A stretch of 64,000 nucleotides of DNA, taken from contig JAUQWM010000063.1 in assembly GCA_030835125.1 (NCBI GenBank), positions 1 to 64,000 of the forward strand, read 5' to 3'. The number at the start of each line of letters is the position of its first letter. Position 1 is the stretch's first letter. The notes beneath the pieces were generated by a model. It made no database searches, was not told the DNA's origin, and worked only from the letters and a program-made list of their open reading frames with translations. This DNA is from Gemmatimonadaceae bacterium. GTDB taxonomy: Bacteria; Gemmatimonadota; Gemmatimonadetes; Gemmatimonadales; Gemmatimonadaceae. Position numbers and translations under genes: made by a program. This document shows positions 29,170 to 36,360 of this stretch, in pieces.

Positions 29170-30432
29170 CTAGCGCACGAAGCGTCGCTCGGCCGCACGC
29201 GCGTGCGCCTCGAGCCCCTCCACGCGGCCCAGCCAGGCCGCGTCCTCGAACAGCTCCCTGCCGGCGTCGCGATCATGGATGGACAGCCACGTCCGGACGC
29301 GCAGGAATGACAGGACCGACAAGCCGCCGGTGTAGCGCGCGGATCGCCCCGTCGGCAGCACGTGATTCGGCCCCGCCCCATAGTCACCCAGGACTTCGGC
29401 GGCATCCGGACCAATGAACAGCGCCCCGTAGTGCCGTACGGCGGCGGCCGCCGCGCGGGGATCGCGAACATGCAGCTCGAGGTGCTCCGGCGCGAGTTGA
29501 TCGCACGCCGCGATACCCTGCGCGATATCACTGACGATTACCACGCCGCCATTCGCCAGCGCGGCCAGCGCCGTCTCGGCCGTCGGCAGCGACGCAACCT
29601 GCACTGCAAGCTCGCACACCACCCGCTCGGCAACAGGCTCTCCGATGCTGACCAGTATTGGCACCGCCATCGGGTCGTGCTCCGCCTGCGCCAGCAGGTC
29701 GGCGGCGACAACGGCGGGATCGGCAGTGTCGTCGGCAAGGACGACGAGTTCCGAGGGACCAGCCAACGCATCGATACCCACCCGCCCGGACACCAGCTGC
29801 TTGGCGGCGGTGACCCAGGCATTGCCCGGTCCGACGAGGACGTCGCACGCGGGACAGCCGCCGACGCCGAAGGTCAGGGCCGCGATTGCCTGCGCTCCAC
29901 CGATCGCGAGAAATCCGTCGACACCCGCCAGCGCCGCGGCGGCGAGCATCATGGGCCCTGGTCGCGGACTCGCCACCCAGCATTCGCCTACGCCGGCGGC
30001 ACGCGCCGTGAGTGCCGTCATGAGCAGTGACGACGGAAGTGGATACCTGCCTCCCGGGGCATAGCACCCGGCCCGCTCCACAGGGGACACGGTATGGCCG
30101 GCGGTCCCGCCGGGAACCGCCACCGTGCAGGACCGCAATGCCGCGCGCTGCGCGTCCGCGAAGGACGAGATGCGCGCCGCCACCCGCTCGAGCCGGCGCC
30201 GGTCGTCAGGCGACAGCGCATCGAGCGCCGCCCGCATGGCCGCGCGCGAAACGCCGAGGGGAGCGCCGGGCACGAGCCCGTCGAGGCGCTCGGCATGGCA
30301 GCGGAGCGCGGACTCCCCGCGCTCGCGCACGTCGTCGACGATCGTGGTCGCCGTGGCCAGGATATCCGGCGACAGCCCGCCCACCTGCGACGCCAGTTCG
30401 TCCACCGAGCGCCGACGGAACGGCACGGTCAT
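29170..30432 (-). CDS. hisD: Histidinol dehydrogenase
   Basis: 420 aa, catalysing the last two oxidations to L-histidine with NAD. Family motifs are GCYAPGGRYPLPSS, ASPRPGP, VGPGNAWVTAAKQ, and zinc-site segments LLAQAEHDP, DYGAGPNHVLPT and EGLEAHARAAERR. Start ATG 30432 overlaps the upstream hisA/I/E stop as ATGA; the longer ORF-track start runs through that gene. hisD lies last of the recognisable his genes here, whereas it is second in enterobacteria. Confidence 0.96.
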   Translation of the reverse strand: MTVPFRRRSVDELASQVGGLSPDILATATTIVDDVRERGESALRCHAERLDGLVPGAPLGVSRAAMRAALDALSPDDRRRLERVAARISSFADAQRAALRSCTVAVPGGTAGHTVSPVERAGCYAPGGRYPLPSSLLMTALTARAAGVGECWVASPRPGPMMLAAAALAGVDGFLAIGGAQAIAALTFGVGGCPACDVLVGPGNAWVTAAKQLVSGRVGIDALAGPSELVVLADDTADPAVVAADLLAQAEHDPMAVPILVSIGEPVAERVVCELAVQVASLPTAETALAALANGGVVIVSDIAQGIAACDQLAPEHLELHVRDPRAAAAAVRHYGALFIGPDAAEVLGDYGAGPNHVLPTGRSARYTGGLSVLSFLRVRTWLSIHDRDAGRELFEDAAWLGRVEGLEAHARAAERRFVR

Positions 30433-31685
30433 GTCTTCGCCTCCATCGGCCGCCGCGAGACGCGGCGTCGCCGGTGACCGAGTTCGGCCTCGACATCCGC
30501 GAGGGTAGCGCCGGCGCCGGCCAGCGCGGTCATCACGAAATACAGCACGTCGGCGGACTCGTGGATGATCTCGGCCCGTGTCCTCGCCAGGGCGAGTTCC
30601 GCTGCCTCTTCCCGCAACTTGGCCCCCAGCAGGTCGGGATCCGTCAGCAGCGATCGCGTCACCGAGGCGCCGAGCGCCTGGTCGCGGCGCTCCCCAATCA
30701 CACGCTCCAGCACCGACAGGTCGAAGCGGTCGCCGAAGCACGTCCTGGTGCCCCGATGGCAGAATCCGGATCCCTCCTGCCTGACGACGAAGCGCAAGGC
30801 GTCGCGGTCGCAGTCCGTCTCGACGGCCAGCAGCCGCTGCGTGGCGCCGGACGACTCGCCCTTGACCCAGATGGCGCCGCGCGAGCGCGACCAGTAGATG
30901 CCCCGTCGCTCGCTCACCGCGCGCCGCAGGGACGCGGCGCTGCTCCAGGCCAGGCCCAGGGCACGACCGGAGTCGTCGGCGACGATCGTTGGCCACAATC
31001 CATCGATGCCCCCCCGCAACGGCGCGCCCACCGCGTCCCCAAGCGCAAGGGCGCCGGTGTAGAGCGCCATGCCGACCTGTGCGTCGACGTCCGCCGCGTC
31101 GAGCGCCGCGATCTCGGCGGCACTCGTTATGCCGCCGGCGGCGGTGATGCGCACTCCCTCCGCGGCCCCGACCGCCGCACGAATGAGTTTGAGGTCAAAC
31201 CCCCGCATCGCTCCCTCATGCTCCACCTGGGTGAGCAGGAACCCGCCAACCCACGGCGCGAGTTCACGAACCAGCTCGAGCACGCCCTGCCCGGTTGCGG
31301 TTCGCCATCCCTCGACCACCACCTGCCCGCGCATCGAGTCGACGGCCGCGATCACGCGATCGCGCGGAAGTGCGCGGCAGAACGCCGGTGTCGCCGCGGT
31401 CCCTACGACGATCCGGGTGGCGCCGGCGTCGAGCCAGGAGCGCGCCGAATCGATATCGCGGATCCCGCCTCCAACCCGGCAGGCAGCCCGCCGAACCATG
31501 TCCCTGATCAGCCCGTCGTTCGATCCCAGGCCAAGAGCCGCGTCGAGGTCAACGACCGCGACCTCTCCCGCGACCGAGAACTCCTCGAGCCGTTCGAGGG
31601 GATCGCCGCCATCCAGCATGAACTCCCGTCCCTGGCGAAGCTGGACCGCCCGGCCGCCCATGATGTCGATGCTGGGCACGATCAT
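30429..31685 (-). CDS. hisA-hisI-hisE: HisA-HisI-HisE trifunctional fusion
   Basis: 418 aa from ATG 31685. Residues 1-~232 are HisA (MIVPSIDIMGGRAVQL, GGGIRDIDSA, IAAVDSM), the ProFAR isomerase barrel. Residues ~240-335 are HisI, PRA-CH (WPTIVADDSGRALGLAW; YWSRSRGAIWVKGESSG; zinc cysteines in TDCDRDAL and FCHRGTRTCF). Residues ~340-418 are HisE, PRA-PH (KLREEAAELALA; ESADVLYFVMTAL). One chain thus carries three consecutive early steps (HisE, HisI, HisA). HisI-HisE fusions are common; joining HisA to them is unusual as far as I know. ATGA junctions on both sides. Confidence 0.93.
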   Translation of the reverse strand: MIVPSIDIMGGRAVQLRQGREFMLDGGDPLERLEEFSVAGEVAVVDLDAALGLGSNDGLIRDMVRRAACRVGGGIRDIDSARSWLDAGATRIVVGTAATPAFCRALPRDRVIAAVDSMRGQVVVEGWRTATGQGVLELVRELAPWVGGFLLTQVEHEGAMRGFDLKLIRAAVGAAEGVRITAAGGITSAAEIAALDAADVDAQVGMALYTGALALGDAVGAPLRGGIDGLWPTIVADDSGRALGLAWSSAASLRRAVSERRGIYWSRSRGAIWVKGESSGATQRLLAVETDCDRDALRFVVRQEGSGFCHRGTRTCFGDRFDLSVLERVIGERRDQALGASVTRSLLTDPDLLGAKLREEAAELALARTRAEIIHESADVLYFVMTALAGAGATLADVEAELGHRRRRVSRRPMEAKT

Positions 31686-33070
31686 CGGCGCACCCTCGCG
31701 CCCGTGGTGGCGAGGGCCGCCTTGATCCCGTCCACCGTCTCGTCGCCATCGTGGAACACGGAAGCGGCCAGGACCGCATCGGCGCCTGACGAGACGGCAT
31801 CGGTGACGTGCGCCCGCGTCCCGATCCCCCCGGACGCGATGACCGGCACCGCGACCGCCTCGCTGACCGCGCGCAGCAACGCGAGGTCGCAGCCGCCTCG
31901 TGTCCCGTCGCGATCCCAACTGGTCAGCAGGATCTCCCCGGCGCCAACGGCCGCACCTTCACGCGCCCACGCGATGGCGTCGCGTCCGGCCGACTGCCGT
32001 CCCCCCATGACCAGCACGTCCCATGACGCACCGTGCCGACGCGCGTCGAGGGCCAGAACCACGCATTGGCGCCCGAACTCAGCCGCGAGTTCCCCGAGGA
32101 GATCCGCACGCTCGACGGCCGCCGTGTTCACGCTCACCTTGTCGGCGCCGGCGGCCAGCACCAGTCTGGCGTCGTCGACGGAGCGAATGCCGCCCCCGAC
32201 CGTCAGCGGAATGCCGAGCGCGGAGCGCACGCGCCGCACCGTCTCGAGCCGGATGGGCCGGGATGCCGGCGACGCGGCGATGTCGAGCAGCACGATCTCG
32301 TCCGCGCCCTGTGCCTCGTACCGGGCAGCCTGTTCGGCGGGATCACCCGCGTCGCGTAGCCCGGTGAACCGGACTCCCTTCACCACGCGATCGTTGGCCA
32401 CGTCCAGGCACGGGACGATCCTGATGGCCAACCCCGCCGGGCGTGAGGCAGTGCCGCCCGCGCTTACCGATCGCGGCTCCCGCCGGAGCCAGCGTCCCAG
32501 CAGCGCGCTCCCTGCCGCCCCGGACAGCTCCGGGTGAAACTGGCAGGCCAGGACGTTCCCGCGCTCGAGTGCCGCGACGAACGGCGTGCCGTGCGTCGTC
32601 CACGCCGCCGCCCACTCGTCAGGCGGGGCGGGCAGCGCGAACGAGTTGGCATACGCCGCGTCCATCCGCTCCACGTAGCGACAGAAATCGCCGGGTTCGA
32701 CGACGTTCCACCCCAGGTGGGGAACGCGGACGCGGGACGGAAGCCGCCGGCAGGTGCCGCGGACGACTCCAAGCCCCGCCACACCGGGCGCCTCCTCACT
32801 CCCATCGCAGAGGAGCTGCATGCCGAGGCAGATGGCAAGCGTCGGCGTGCCGCGCACGATCTCGCCGGTCATCGCTTCGTCGAGCCGCTGCGCGCGCAAG
32901 GCACCGATCCCCGCGCCAAACGCGCCAACCCCCGGCAGGACCAGTCGCGTGGCCTTTCGCAACGCGCCGGGATCGGCAGTGACCACCGTACTCGCGCCCA
33001 GGCGCGCGAACGCCGCCCTGACGGAAGCCAGGTTCGCCACCCCCGAGTCGACAATCGTCACCTCGCTCAC
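31682..33070 (-). CDS. hisHF: HisH-HisF fusion, imidazole glycerol phosphate synthase
   Basis: 462 aa. Residues 1-~205 are the glutaminase HisH (IVDSGVANLASV; GVGAFG; nucleophile AICLGMQLL; CQFHPELSG). Residues ~215-462 are the cyclase HisF (IRIVPCLDVANDRVVKGVRF; GGGIRSVDDA; VLALDARRHG; IASGGIG). The product makes IGP and AICAR from PRFAR and glutamine, with ammonia channelled inside one chain. This is the domain order of eukaryotic HIS7; most bacteria keep two genes. The linker (VSAGGTASRPAG) is short. ATGA overlaps upstream and downstream. Confidence 0.95.
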   Translation of the reverse strand: MSEVTIVDSGVANLASVRAAFARLGASTVVTADPGALRKATRLVLPGVGAFGAGIGALRAQRLDEAMTGEIVRGTPTLAICLGMQLLCDGSEEAPGVAGLGVVRGTCRRLPSRVRVPHLGWNVVEPGDFCRYVERMDAAYANSFALPAPPDEWAAAWTTHGTPFVAALERGNVLACQFHPELSGAAGSALLGRWLRREPRSVSAGGTASRPAGLAIRIVPCLDVANDRVVKGVRFTGLRDAGDPAEQAARYEAQGADEIVLLDIAASPASRPIRLETVRRVRSALGIPLTVGGGIRSVDDARLVLAAGADKVSVNTAAVERADLLGELAAEFGRQCVVLALDARRHGASWDVLVMGGRQSAGRDAIAWAREGAAVGAGEILLTSWDRDGTRGGCDLALLRAVSEAVAVPVIASGGIGTRAHVTDAVSSGADAVLAASVFHDGDETVDGIKAALATTGARVRR

Positions 33071-33657
33071 AACACCCCCTTGGTCGACGGGATGTCGTCA
33101 AAGCCCGAGCGCGCCATCGCTTTCCGCAACGCGACCGCCAGCGCCTTGAATGCCGCCTCGGCGCGGTGATGGTCGTTGGTGCCCTTCAGCACATCCGCGT
33201 GCAGCGTCAGTCGCGCTCCGAGGGCCAGCGACCGGAAGACGTGGGAGACGTTCTCGCACGAGAGCGTGCCGAGTCGGTCGCGGGTGAGCCCGAGGCTGAT
33301 GTCGGCGAACGGTCGTCCGCTGAGGTCCACGGCGACGCGGGCCAGCGCGTCGTCGAGTGGGACCAGCGCGTCCCCGAAGCGGACGAGGCCGCGGCGATCT
33401 CCCAGCGCAACGTCCAGCGCCTGGCCCAGGGCCAGTGCGGTGTCTTCGGCCGTGTGATGGTCATCGACGTGCAGGTCGCCTTCGCAGCGCACGGTGAGGT
33501 CGAGGCGCGCGTGCCGGGCAAACGACGCCAGCATGTGATCGAGGAAGCCGATCCCCGTGTTGGCGTCGGCCGCTCCGGAGCCGTCGACGAGGAGGTCGAC
33601 CGTCACGGAGGACTCCGCGGTCGTCCGCTGCACCTGCCCGCGGCGTGGCGTCGTCAT
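33067..33657 (-). CDS. hisB: Imidazoleglycerol-phosphate dehydratase
   Basis: 196 aa, monofunctional (no phosphatase domain). The two manganese-binding histidine clusters are DDHHTAEDTAL and NDHHRAEAAF, with GIGFLDHMLASFARHA near the N-terminus. It converts IGP to imidazole acetol phosphate. Coupled by 4-base overlaps to hisC and hisHF. No histidinol-phosphatase gene is in the cluster, so that step must be encoded elsewhere. Confidence 0.96.
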   Translation of the reverse strand: MTTPRRGQVQRTTAESSVTVDLLVDGSGAADANTGIGFLDHMLASFARHARLDLTVRCEGDLHVDDHHTAEDTALALGQALDVALGDRRGLVRFGDALVPLDDALARVAVDLSGRPFADISLGLTRDRLGTLSCENVSHVFRSLALGARLTLHADVLKGTNDHHRAEAAFKALAVALRKAMARSGFDDIPSTKGVL

Positions 33658-34739
33658 CGGGCGCGGTCCGTCGTGGCCAGGGCCACGTCGAGCGCCGACG
33701 TGAGGAGCGCAAACTGGCCCTCGTCCCCGGGCAGCGTGATGCGAAGCCCGTGCGGCGCGCCCGATCGGTCGCGCAAGAGCCGCACGAGGATGCCCTGCTC
33801 CCGGAGCGCTGCGTGAACGTCGGCGGCGCGCGGGCCGAGTTCCGCATACACGAAGTTGGCCTGGGACGTGCGCGGCGATGCGCCGCGCCGCGCGAGCTGG
33901 CCCTGGAGGCGGAGCCGCTCCTCACGAATGCGCGCGACATGGCCGTCGCGGCCCGCGGTGCCGCGCTCGAGGTGCGCGGTGACGATCGCCAGGGACGTCG
34001 CCGCGACCGGGAAGGGCCCGCCGGCCGCCCGCAGCGCGGCGAGAATGGCGGCCCGTCCCAGGGTGTAGCCGACCCGGCAGCCCGCCAGTCCCCAGGCCTT
34101 CGAGAAGGTCCGGATGACGACGACGTTAGGCAGGGCCAGGGCCTCGGCGGTGAGGTCGCGGTCGGCATACTCGGCGTACGCGTGGTCGAGGATGACGAGG
34201 GCGCGCGGGGCCGCCGACGCGATGCGGCGGAGGTCCTCGATCGTCGCGACCTCGCCGGTGGGATTGTTGGGCGTGACGACCGCGACGATCGACACCCGAT
34301 CGTCGATGGCGGCCAGCATCGCGTCGGCCGGGAACGGGCCCGGCGCCCAGCGCACGCGTTCCACGGCTCCGCCCGTCAAGGTCGCGTACCGCTCGAACAT
34401 CTCGAACGTGGGGTCGGTGAGGAGCATCGAGCGGCCCGCACCCAGGAAGGCGCGGCAGCACCGATCGATGCCCTCGTCGGCGCCGGCCGTGACGAAGGCC
34501 TGGTCCGGGTCGAGCCCGTACCGCGCGGCGAGCATCGCCTCGAAGGCGCGTGTGTCGGGATAGCGCCGCACGAGTTCAGGGCCGCCGAGGCGCAGGGCAT
34601 CCAGCACTGCCTCGATCGAGGGTGTGGCGCCCTCGTTAGCATCGAGTCGCAGACGCACGGTGCCGGGGACGCCCGGCTTCCGGTACGCGAGGCGGGGGTC
34701 AACGAGCGGCACCGGGCCAGTGGGGATTCCGGGATTCAT
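33654..34739 (-). CDS. hisC: Histidinol-phosphate aminotransferase
   Basis: 361 aa, PLP-dependent class I/II transaminase. Motifs: RLDANEG near the N-terminus, VVTPNNPTGEVA, LDHAYAEYAD, and the PLP lysine in RTFSKAWGLAGCRVGY. Start ATG 34739 overlaps the hisG stop (ATGA); the ORF-track version extends back through hisG. Confidence 0.95.
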   Translation of the reverse strand: MNPGIPTGPVPLVDPRLAYRKPGVPGTVRLRLDANEGATPSIEAVLDALRLGGPELVRRYPDTRAFEAMLAARYGLDPDQAFVTAGADEGIDRCCRAFLGAGRSMLLTDPTFEMFERYATLTGGAVERVRWAPGPFPADAMLAAIDDRVSIVAVVTPNNPTGEVATIEDLRRIASAAPRALVILDHAYAEYADRDLTAEALALPNVVVIRTFSKAWGLAGCRVGYTLGRAAILAALRAAGGPFPVAATSLAIVTAHLERGTAGRDGHVARIREERLRLQGQLARRGASPRTSQANFVYAELGPRAADVHAALREQGILVRLLRDRSGAPHGLRITLPGDEGQFALLTSALDVALATTDRAR

Positions 34740-35596
34740 GGGACGATCTGGGAAAGGGTCGAGACCACGACATCGGTGCCACCGGCGGCCTTCAGTGCCG
34801 GAATGACGCGAGGCAGCGTCTCGCGCGGGACGGCGGCCTTCACGGCATAACTGCCGTTGCCGTAGAGCGGGGAGACGGTGGGGCGGCGCATGCTTGGGAG
34901 GACGGCCACCACCCGCTCGAGGCATTCGCCTGACGCGTTCACCTCGACCATCACCCGGCGGCGGGCTTCCAGCACGCTCGCCAGTAGCAGGGCGATGTCC
35001 TCGACGCGACGACGGCGAACAGGGTCGGCCCAGGCCGCGGGGCTGGCGTAGAGTCGCGTGGACGAGCGCAGCAGCGAGTCCACGATGACGAGGCCATTGG
35101 CCTGCAGCGTCGCCCCGGTCGCGGTCGAGTCGACGATCACGTCGGCGTCCTCGGGCGGGAAGACCTCGGTCGCGCCGAAGGAGCGCACGCAGGAGGCCTC
35201 GAGTCCGCGGCGCGCAATCCAGGCGCTCGTCAGGCATGCGTACTCGGAGGCCACGACCAGGTGCCGGCGCGGCAGCCGGCCGCCGTCGAGCAGCGCGCCG
35301 GGGGCGGCCGCGACCAGTTCGACGGGATCGAGCCCGGTATCGAGCACCTCGACCACGTCGGCCGAGAGTTCAGCGACCCAATCGGCCCCGGCGAAGCCCA
35401 CGTCACGGCTCCCGGCCACGAGCATCTCGATGATGTTCTGCGGCTTGAGGATCTTCACCTCGCTGGCCTCGAGACCCACATGTGGGCGGTACCCCCGCGC
35501 CGTCGGGGTCACCCGGACCCCGGCGTCGGACAGCAGCTCGAGCACGGCGCGTTCCATCCTCCCCTTGGGAAGGCCGATACGCAGGATCTCGCTCAT
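34736..35596 (-). CDS. hisG: ATP phosphoribosyltransferase, long form
   Basis: 286 aa from ATG 35596. It has the N-terminus IGLPKGRMERAVLELL, the catalytic core with DVGFAGADWVAEL, the PRPP loop region DVIVDSTATGATLQ, and a C-terminal ACT-like regulatory domain (~210-286, NGSYAVKAAVP). Long-form HisG is inhibited by histidine without HisZ, and no hisZ is seen. It is the first structural gene of the operon, 47 bases after the attenuator hairpin. Confidence 0.96.
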   Translation of the reverse strand: MSEILRIGLPKGRMERAVLELLSDAGVRVTPTARGYRPHVGLEASEVKILKPQNIIEMLVAGSRDVGFAGADWVAELSADVVEVLDTGLDPVELVAAAPGALLDGGRLPRRHLVVASEYACLTSAWIARRGLEASCVRSFGATEVFPPEDADVIVDSTATGATLQANGLVIVDSLLRSSTRLYASPAAWADPVRRRRVEDIALLLASVLEARRRVMVEVNASGECLERVVAVLPSMRRPTVSPLYGNGSYAVKAAVPRETLPRVIPALKAAGGTDVVVSTLSQIVP

Positions 35597-35642
35597 CACG
35601 GACCTCGAAGTCCCCGGCATCAGAGCGGCCGGGAGATGGTGA

Positions 35643-35676
35643 CAAAAAGAAAGACGCCGGCTGGGAAGCCGGCGTC
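35643..35676 (-). terminator. his operon attenuator terminator
   Basis: On the minus strand GACGCCGGC-TTCCCA-GCCGGCGTC forms a perfect 9-bp stem followed by TTTCTTTTT. It lies between the leader peptide and hisG, the position of a classical attenuator. Confidence 0.88.
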
Positions 35677-35708
35677 GTGGTTGCTTTCGGACTCGATCGT
35701 GAATCCGC

Positions 35709-35783
35709 CTACACCGCGCGCATGCCTCCCCTGGCCTGAAAGCCATGGTGGACGTGATGGTGGCGCGCGGTGGTGCGAAGCAT
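35709..35783 (-). CDS. hisL: Histidine leader peptide
   Basis: Not in the ORF track. A 24-aa peptide whose codons 8-13 read His-His-His-Val-His-His (HHHVHH). It ends at TAG, 33 bases before the attenuator stem. When charged tRNA-His is scarce, ribosome stalling on these codons would prevent the terminator from forming and allow hisG onwards to be transcribed. A -10 box ends seven bases before its ATG, so the mRNA probably starts at or next to the ATG, with no Shine-Dalgarno sequence. Confidence 0.85.
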   Translation of the reverse strand: MLRTTARHHHVHHGFQARGGMRAV

Positions 35784-35790
35784 GGCAGGG

Positions 35791-35818
35791 ATCTTATCCG
35801 TCAAACGGTCGCTGTCAA
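35791..35818 (-). promoter_or_regulatory. his operon promoter
   Basis: TTGACA and TAAGAT separated by 16 bases. The -35 box overlaps the stop codon of the upstream DinB-like gene (TGA is part of TTGACA). The predicted start of transcription is at the hisL ATG or within two bases of it. Confidence 0.72.
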
Positions 35819-36360
35819 GCACGACGTGCCTGGTGATCGAGGATCGGCAGGTACTGCCGCCACGGCCCGACCGCCTCACGATACTGTTTCGCCATCACCC
35901 GGGCCGTTTGCGCGATATGCCCCAGGTCGTGCGCGATCCACGTGGCCAGGAGCTGCCGCAGGGTAACGTTGCCGAAGGCGGGATGTTCTCCCTCGAGCGC
36001 GAGTTCCCGGTCCGTGAGGTTCCAGCCCCGAAGCACGTCGAGGTTCGCGGCGCGCAACGACGCGAACTCGTCGACCAGTTCATCCATCGTCTTACCCTGG
36101 CTCTCGCGCGCCTGCGCAAACCGGTCGTACGGCTCGAAACGGCGGTTCTCGCCCTGCGCCAGGATGATGCGAGCCCGCGGGATCCAGTCGGTCCGCTCGC
36201 CGTGGATGAGGTGGCCAAGGTTGTCGAACGCACTGAACGTGTCGGCTCCCTCGTTGGGAGCCGTCCATGCCTCCGGCAACCCCCTGGTCAGCGCGCGGAA
36301 CACCGCCGGCGTCCGTTCGAGGATCTCCGTGGCGTGTACCAGGTCGAACTGCATCGTCAT
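35815..36360 (-). CDS. DinB-superfamily protein
   Basis: 181 aa four-helix-bundle protein. The metal-ligand histidines of the DinB fold appear as NLGHLIHGE in helix 2 and AHDLGHIAQ in helix 4. Members include thiol-dependent transferases and hydrolases; the activity here is unknown. It is transcribed towards the his operon, and its stop codon lies in the his promoter. ATG 36354 is an equally possible start. Confidence 0.85.
   Translation of the reverse strand: MTMQFDLVHATEILERTPAVFRALTRGLPEAWTAPNEGADTFSAFDNLGHLIHGERTDWIPRARIILAQGENRRFEPYDRFAQARESQGKTMDELVDEFASLRAANLDVLRGWNLTDRELALEGEHPAFGNVTLRQLLATWIAHDLGHIAQTARVMAKQYREAVGPWRQYLPILDHQARRA

Follow-up and report, generated by a model that had tools for sequence, protein, structure and literature searches.

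A putative leaderless attenuator upstream of the histidine operon in a Gemmatimonadaceae bacterium and in genomes of its relatives

The region between a DinB_2 gene and hisG in the window (the whole 64,000-nucleotide stretch of Gemmatimonadaceae DNA analysed here) is very probably a ribosome-mediated attenuator of the his operon. Its leader mRNA would begin on the start codon (AUG) of the leader peptide or at most one or two bases from it. The promoter geometry, the leader ORF with its His run, the terminator, the alternative fold and the conservation of these elements were established by sequence and computation; from them we infer the exact start site, that the leader is translated and that the switch responds to histidine.

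Anatomy of the leader and the operon

The promoter, the leader ORF and the terminator all lie on the minus strand, which the first-pass annotation had left unstated. The -35 box TTGACA (35813..35818, minus) and the -10 box TAAGAT (35791..35796, minus) are separated by a 16-nt spacer and together match the consensus at 10 of 12 positions; the promoter scan detected this one site, against 0.1 expected in shuffles. The TGA with which the upstream DinB_2 gene (35815-36360) ends falls inside the -35 box, and this gene lies on the same strand as the leader. Seven bases, CCCTGCC, lead from the -10 box to the leader ATG at 35783, and no Shine-Dalgarno-like sequence was found before this ATG in the window. 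The spacing, its conserved geometry and the pyrimidines at -2 and -1 place the probable transcription start on the A of the ATG itself (35783, minus).

The ORF that opens here (35709..35783, minus) has 24 codons followed by a stop and encodes the peptide MLRTTARHHHVHHGFQARGGMRAV. Its codons 8-13 (35745..35762, minus) are the presumed sensor and read HHHVHH, five His in six, a run that is kept in relatives. The intrinsic terminator hairpin (35653..35676, minus) consists of 10 perfect base pairs, 8 of them G-C, with a 4-nt loop, and the T-run TTTCTTTTTG (35644-35652, minus) stands directly 3' of the stem. Each structural element reported by the first-pass annotation was thus recovered: the spaced promoter, the 24-codon His-rich leader (35783-35709), the perfect terminator with its T-run ahead of hisG (stem 35676-35653), the ATG seven bases past the -10 box without a Shine-Dalgarno sequence, and the -35 box built into the stop codon of the DinB-like gene.

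The first structural gene, hisG, is of the long form with HisG and HisG_C domain matches (34736..35596, minus) and has its own Shine-Dalgarno sequence, GAGGT at 35606-35602, five bases 5' of its ATG. The hisG frame stays open in the 5' direction as far as an ATG at 35746 within the leader (35597-35746, minus), and automatic annotation may lengthen HisG by 50 residues, through the terminator. The remaining genes (29170..34736, minus) are hisC, hisB, a hisH-hisF fusion, a hisA-hisIE fusion and hisD, which gives the order hisGCB(HF)(A-IE)D. One fused enzyme (31682-33070, minus) combines glutamine amidotransferase and His_biosynth domains and is HisH-HisF by sequence, while the other (30429-31919, minus) combines His_biosynth, PRA-CH and PRA-PH domains and corresponds to HisA-HisIE; the assignment of HisF and HisA in the two fusions is our reading of their N-termini.

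Alternative folds and the proposed switch

The unmasked leader RNA folds with -67 kcal/mol (z -5.6 against shuffles) into a form that contains a 1:2 helix and the terminator. In this minimum-energy fold segment 1 (CACCGCGCGC; 35763..35772, minus), if free of ribosomes, pairs with part of segment 2. Segment 2 (GGCCAGGGGAGGC..GCGCGCGGUG; 35711..35736, minus) appears as the 5' side of an antiterminator in the fold with the first 42-45 nt masked, and segment 3 (35659..35684, minus), its 3' side, overlaps the 5' arm and loop of the terminator.

The ribosome was imitated by masking the RNA from its 5' end, and the probability of the terminator was calculated for each front position. In the window this probability was about 0.82 at almost all positions; it was down to 0.57 at nt 39, lay at 0.09-0.16 over nt 42-48 and was back up by nt 51-54. 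If the ribosome front is taken to lie some 12 nt beyond the A-site codon, a stall with His codons 12 and 13 (nt 33-38) in the A site would bring it to about nt 42-48. With the front there, GGCC-AGGGGAGGC-GCGCGCGGUG pairs in the predicted fold with the 5' half of the terminator. The antiterminator that had been proposed as a folding check was therefore found by masked folding of the leader RNA; in these predicted folds a stall at the sensor codons releases an antiterminator that cannot coexist with the terminator. In an alignment fold of ten relatives the covariation term was about zero because these relatives are alike in the stem, and we claim no support from it.

These folds suggest the following course of events. 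With no Shine-Dalgarno sequence to guide it, the ribosome would load directly on the AUG at the 5' end and trail RNA polymerase. When charged tRNA-His is ample, it would reach the stop codon and cover segment 2, so that the terminator hairpin could form and transcription would end before hisG. When charged tRNA-His is scarce, the ribosome would stall on the last His codons (12-13) and cover segment 1 and the sequence to about nt 42-48; segment 2 would then remain exposed and could pair with the terminator's 5' half, and polymerase would continue into hisGCB(HF)(A-IE)D.

Conservation, competing explanations and distribution

How far is this arrangement kept at other hisG loci? We collected such loci from Gemmatimonadota genomes and a named genome collection, which yielded 184 non-redundant upstream regions including that of the window; these loci are related, so their counts are not independent events, and they span dozens of genera. 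A leader was defined as a small ORF with at least 3 His in seven codons, and the ATG closest to the His run was taken as its start, a choice made blind to the promoter. By this definition 140 of the 184 regions carry a His-rich leader ORF, compared with 10 in the antisense control and 4 in the shuffled one. TTGAC stands 34-40 nt before the leader start in 116 of the 140 (shuffled mean 0.7), TANNNT occupies -17..-11 in 76, and both occur together in 69 (shuffled 0.01). The gap from the -10 box to the ATG is mostly 6, 7 or 9 with a mode of 7; among relatives whose promoter can be recognised, about one third have a gap of 9-10, which would permit a 5' end 2-4 nt before the AUG. Pyrimidines are found at -2 in 117/140 leaders and at -1 in 110/140, as expected if transcription begins on the A of the leader ATG. 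An SD-like 5-mer precedes a single leader out of 140 (4.6 in shuffles), and the hisG starts of the same loci have an SD-like motif in 26 of 101 cases and TTGAC in one.

A terminator follows 128 of the 140 leaders on the 3' side (antisense 10), mostly 20-50 nt past the leader stop, and the leader loci have 94 different terminator 5' arms. The leader peptides are equally diverse, with 138 distinct sequences among 140, and the His run alone is kept. Loss of the His codons in close relatives had been named beforehand as an observation that would speak against the attenuator; the nearest relatives retain the run, and the remainder of the peptide varies.

The modelled stall was extended to 117 loci. 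On average the terminator becomes less probable with the ribosome front within about 0-12 nt of the final His codon in the run, and its probability is high at other front positions. This dip is weaker after the RNA that separates the His run from the terminator has been shuffled (mean 0.86 vs 0.68; Wilcoxon p ~2e-9). The average dip is modest, and the stall brings the probability below 0.5 in only one quarter to one third of the loci, since the folding is thermodynamic and leaves out co-transcriptional kinetics, and since the ribosome edge is set only approximately.

These data bear on the other ways in which the region might be read. The attenuator may be real and its mRNA not leaderless, with transcription starting upstream, from another promoter or by readthrough from the DinB gene, and the leader would then be translated by coupling or from a longer 5' UTR that has no Shine-Dalgarno sequence. 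The 5' end of the leader is predicted from spacing, the upstream gene lies on the same strand with its stop within the -35 box, and E. coli hisL likewise has no strong Shine-Dalgarno sequence, all of which would suit such a start. However, the promoter hexamers stand at the same distance from the leader start in distant relatives (116/140) whatever sits upstream, SD-like motifs are depleted before the leaders, and the pyrimidines at -2 and -1 suit a start on the A, so we consider a longer transcript improbable.

Still less credible, in our estimation, is that the His-rich ORF encodes a small functional protein, for example a metal-binding one, with its own terminator, and that hisG is served by a separate promoter downstream. 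His-rich peptides do bind metals, and some leader peptides work in trans, as peTrpL does (PMC7298713). Such a protein would hardly be preserved in its His run alone through 138 distinct peptides of 140; it would also leave unexplained the antiterminator and the position of the stall-dependent dip. The terminator that comes mostly 20-50 nt past the leader stop speaks against it too. A chance run of CAC/CAT codons in GC-rich DNA beside an ordinary terminator has a negligible probability, being refuted by the conservation and by the antisense and shuffle controls on leader ORFs and terminators.

The putatively leaderless his leader is the standard form across Gemmatimonadota, and it is also present in genomes labelled as other phyla. 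Phylum here means the deposited label, and most records are metagenome bins. A leader was detected in 104 of the 128 Gemmatimonadota regions; 24 lack it by the His criterion, and seven of these belong to a Tyr/Phe variant. The loci from outside Gemmatimonadota were picked by similarity to the hisG of the window and are not a census of those phyla. Among them the leader was found in 15 of the 18 regions labelled Planctomycetota (13 with TTGAC in place), in all five labelled Spirochaetota, under a few other labels, and in just 3 of the 16 labelled Myxococcota/Deltaproteobacteria. Two of the leader-bearing Planctomycetota records are chromosomes (L097, L111). Leaders outside Gemmatimonadota may indicate that the operon was transferred together with its control region.

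The promoter pattern is not confined to the his leader. TTGAC-N15-19-TANNNT-N4-9-ATG occurs at 12 places in the genome and at 2 when the genome is read backwards as a control. Each of the 11 matches other than the his leader leads straight into an ORF of at least 80 residues, which suggests that leaderless initiation is likely in ordinary use in this genome. Most of the ten ORFs scanned match Pfam families, Semialdhyde_dh, RlmN_N, PseudoU_synth_1 and an ArsR-type HTH among them. The eleven genes with leaderless-spaced promoters (L112, L113, L115-L123 in genome G000) include argC-like, rlmN-like and truA-like genes and several regulators.

Known attenuators and variation of the sensor codons

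Attenuators of his operons have been described in Proteobacteria (gammaproteobacteria) and in a few Firmicutes (PMC9413887). The hisL leader of E. coli and Salmonella (RF00514) is unlike that of the window outside the His codons. E. coli hisL has no TTGAC/TANNNT at the leaderless distance and a TAGGTT about 40 nt before its ATG; it lies farther from its promoter and is therefore leadered. The candidate attenuators of the Bacillus cereus group, Peptostreptococcaceae and Erysipelotrichales resemble the present one in having 3-5 consecutive His codons and a terminator/antiterminator before his genes outside Proteobacteria, but they belong to another phylum, and the portion of the paper seen makes no mention of a leaderless start (PMC9413887).

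Leaderless leaders are known from attenuators for other amino acids. In Streptomyces lividans the leader peptides LeuL, TrpL, IlvL, MetL and ThrL, covering the Leu, Trp, Ile/Val, Met and Thr attenuators, are leaderless (PMC8079986). They have no 5' UTR, as is predicted for the leader of the window, and share with it TTGAC / TAnnnT at similar spacing, codons for the amino acid concerned and in some cases a terminator; they differ in the amino acids and in phylum (PMC8079986). No his RNA structures turned up in Actinobacteria in a survey of 2005 (PMC1262725). In Sinorhizobium meliloti the attenuated RNA trpL/rnTrpL begins on the ATG of its leader peptide, as is predicted here, but it concerns Trp, belongs to Alphaproteobacteria and has trans-acting roles (PMC7298713). 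The probably leaderless, ribosome-mediated his attenuator that the first-pass annotation had suggested stands as the best reading. With the precedents in Streptomyces (PMC8079986) and Sinorhizobium (PMC7298713), leaderless leaders of attenuators are in themselves nothing new, and given its spread across Gemmatimonadota and into genomes labelled as several other phyla the arrangement is no local oddity.

In the literature searched, which left most subscription papers outside, neither a leaderless his attenuator nor any his attenuation in Gemmatimonadota was found described. The parts are known; their combination, spread and rigid geometry are new as far as these searches reach. Ribosome-mediated his attenuation would thereby extend to Gemmatimonadota and apparently to several other phyla for which the papers found give no such account, with the leaderless form as the rule there. 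It would also be tied to leaderless initiation, since with an AUG at the very 5' end the first ribosome is coupled to polymerase immediately, as attenuators need. More than 100 natural variants of one switch are available for testing its essential features.

One of these variants concerns the sensor codons. In one Gemmatimonadota genus (g69; loci L136, L137, L138, L140, L141, L148 and L149) the leader is MTNTHxFFGHYYYHRxxGGR. Tyr (or Phe) codons take the place of His in the middle of the run, with FF ahead of it; the distance from TTGAC to the ATG is unchanged and the terminator is present. One member of the genus keeps HHYYH, and locus L144 is intermediate. The operon of this genus is hisG-hisC-hisB, with names read from sequence. 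In some bacteria HisC also serves as a Tyr/Phe aminotransferase; with such a double role joint sensing would make sense, and we hypothesize that this leader may sense His, Tyr and Phe together.

We propose tentatively, at somewhat short of even odds, that leaderlessness is a selected part of an attenuator class found across Gemmatimonadota and in Planctomycetota-labelled, Spirochaetota-labelled and other genomes. The leader would be held at the 5' end of the RNA for instant loading of the ribosome as polymerase starts, and the sensor codons could be re-aimed, as in the one genus with His, Tyr and Phe, matching the double role of HisC.

Comparison with Rfam gave no match of the window leader to the His leader family RF00514 at the gathering score. 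No T-box was detected upstream of the operon, and the sole Rfam match in the whole window is a tRNA. Two Burkholderia sRNAs were considered and rejected. The match to ncS025 is weak and far under the gathering score, as is the full-length match to ncS037 (RF02868; 35646-35783, minus; E 0.016-0.03). No mention of ncS037 was found in the literature searched. Its match begins exactly at the leader ATG, and ncS037 itself might be an attenuated leader.
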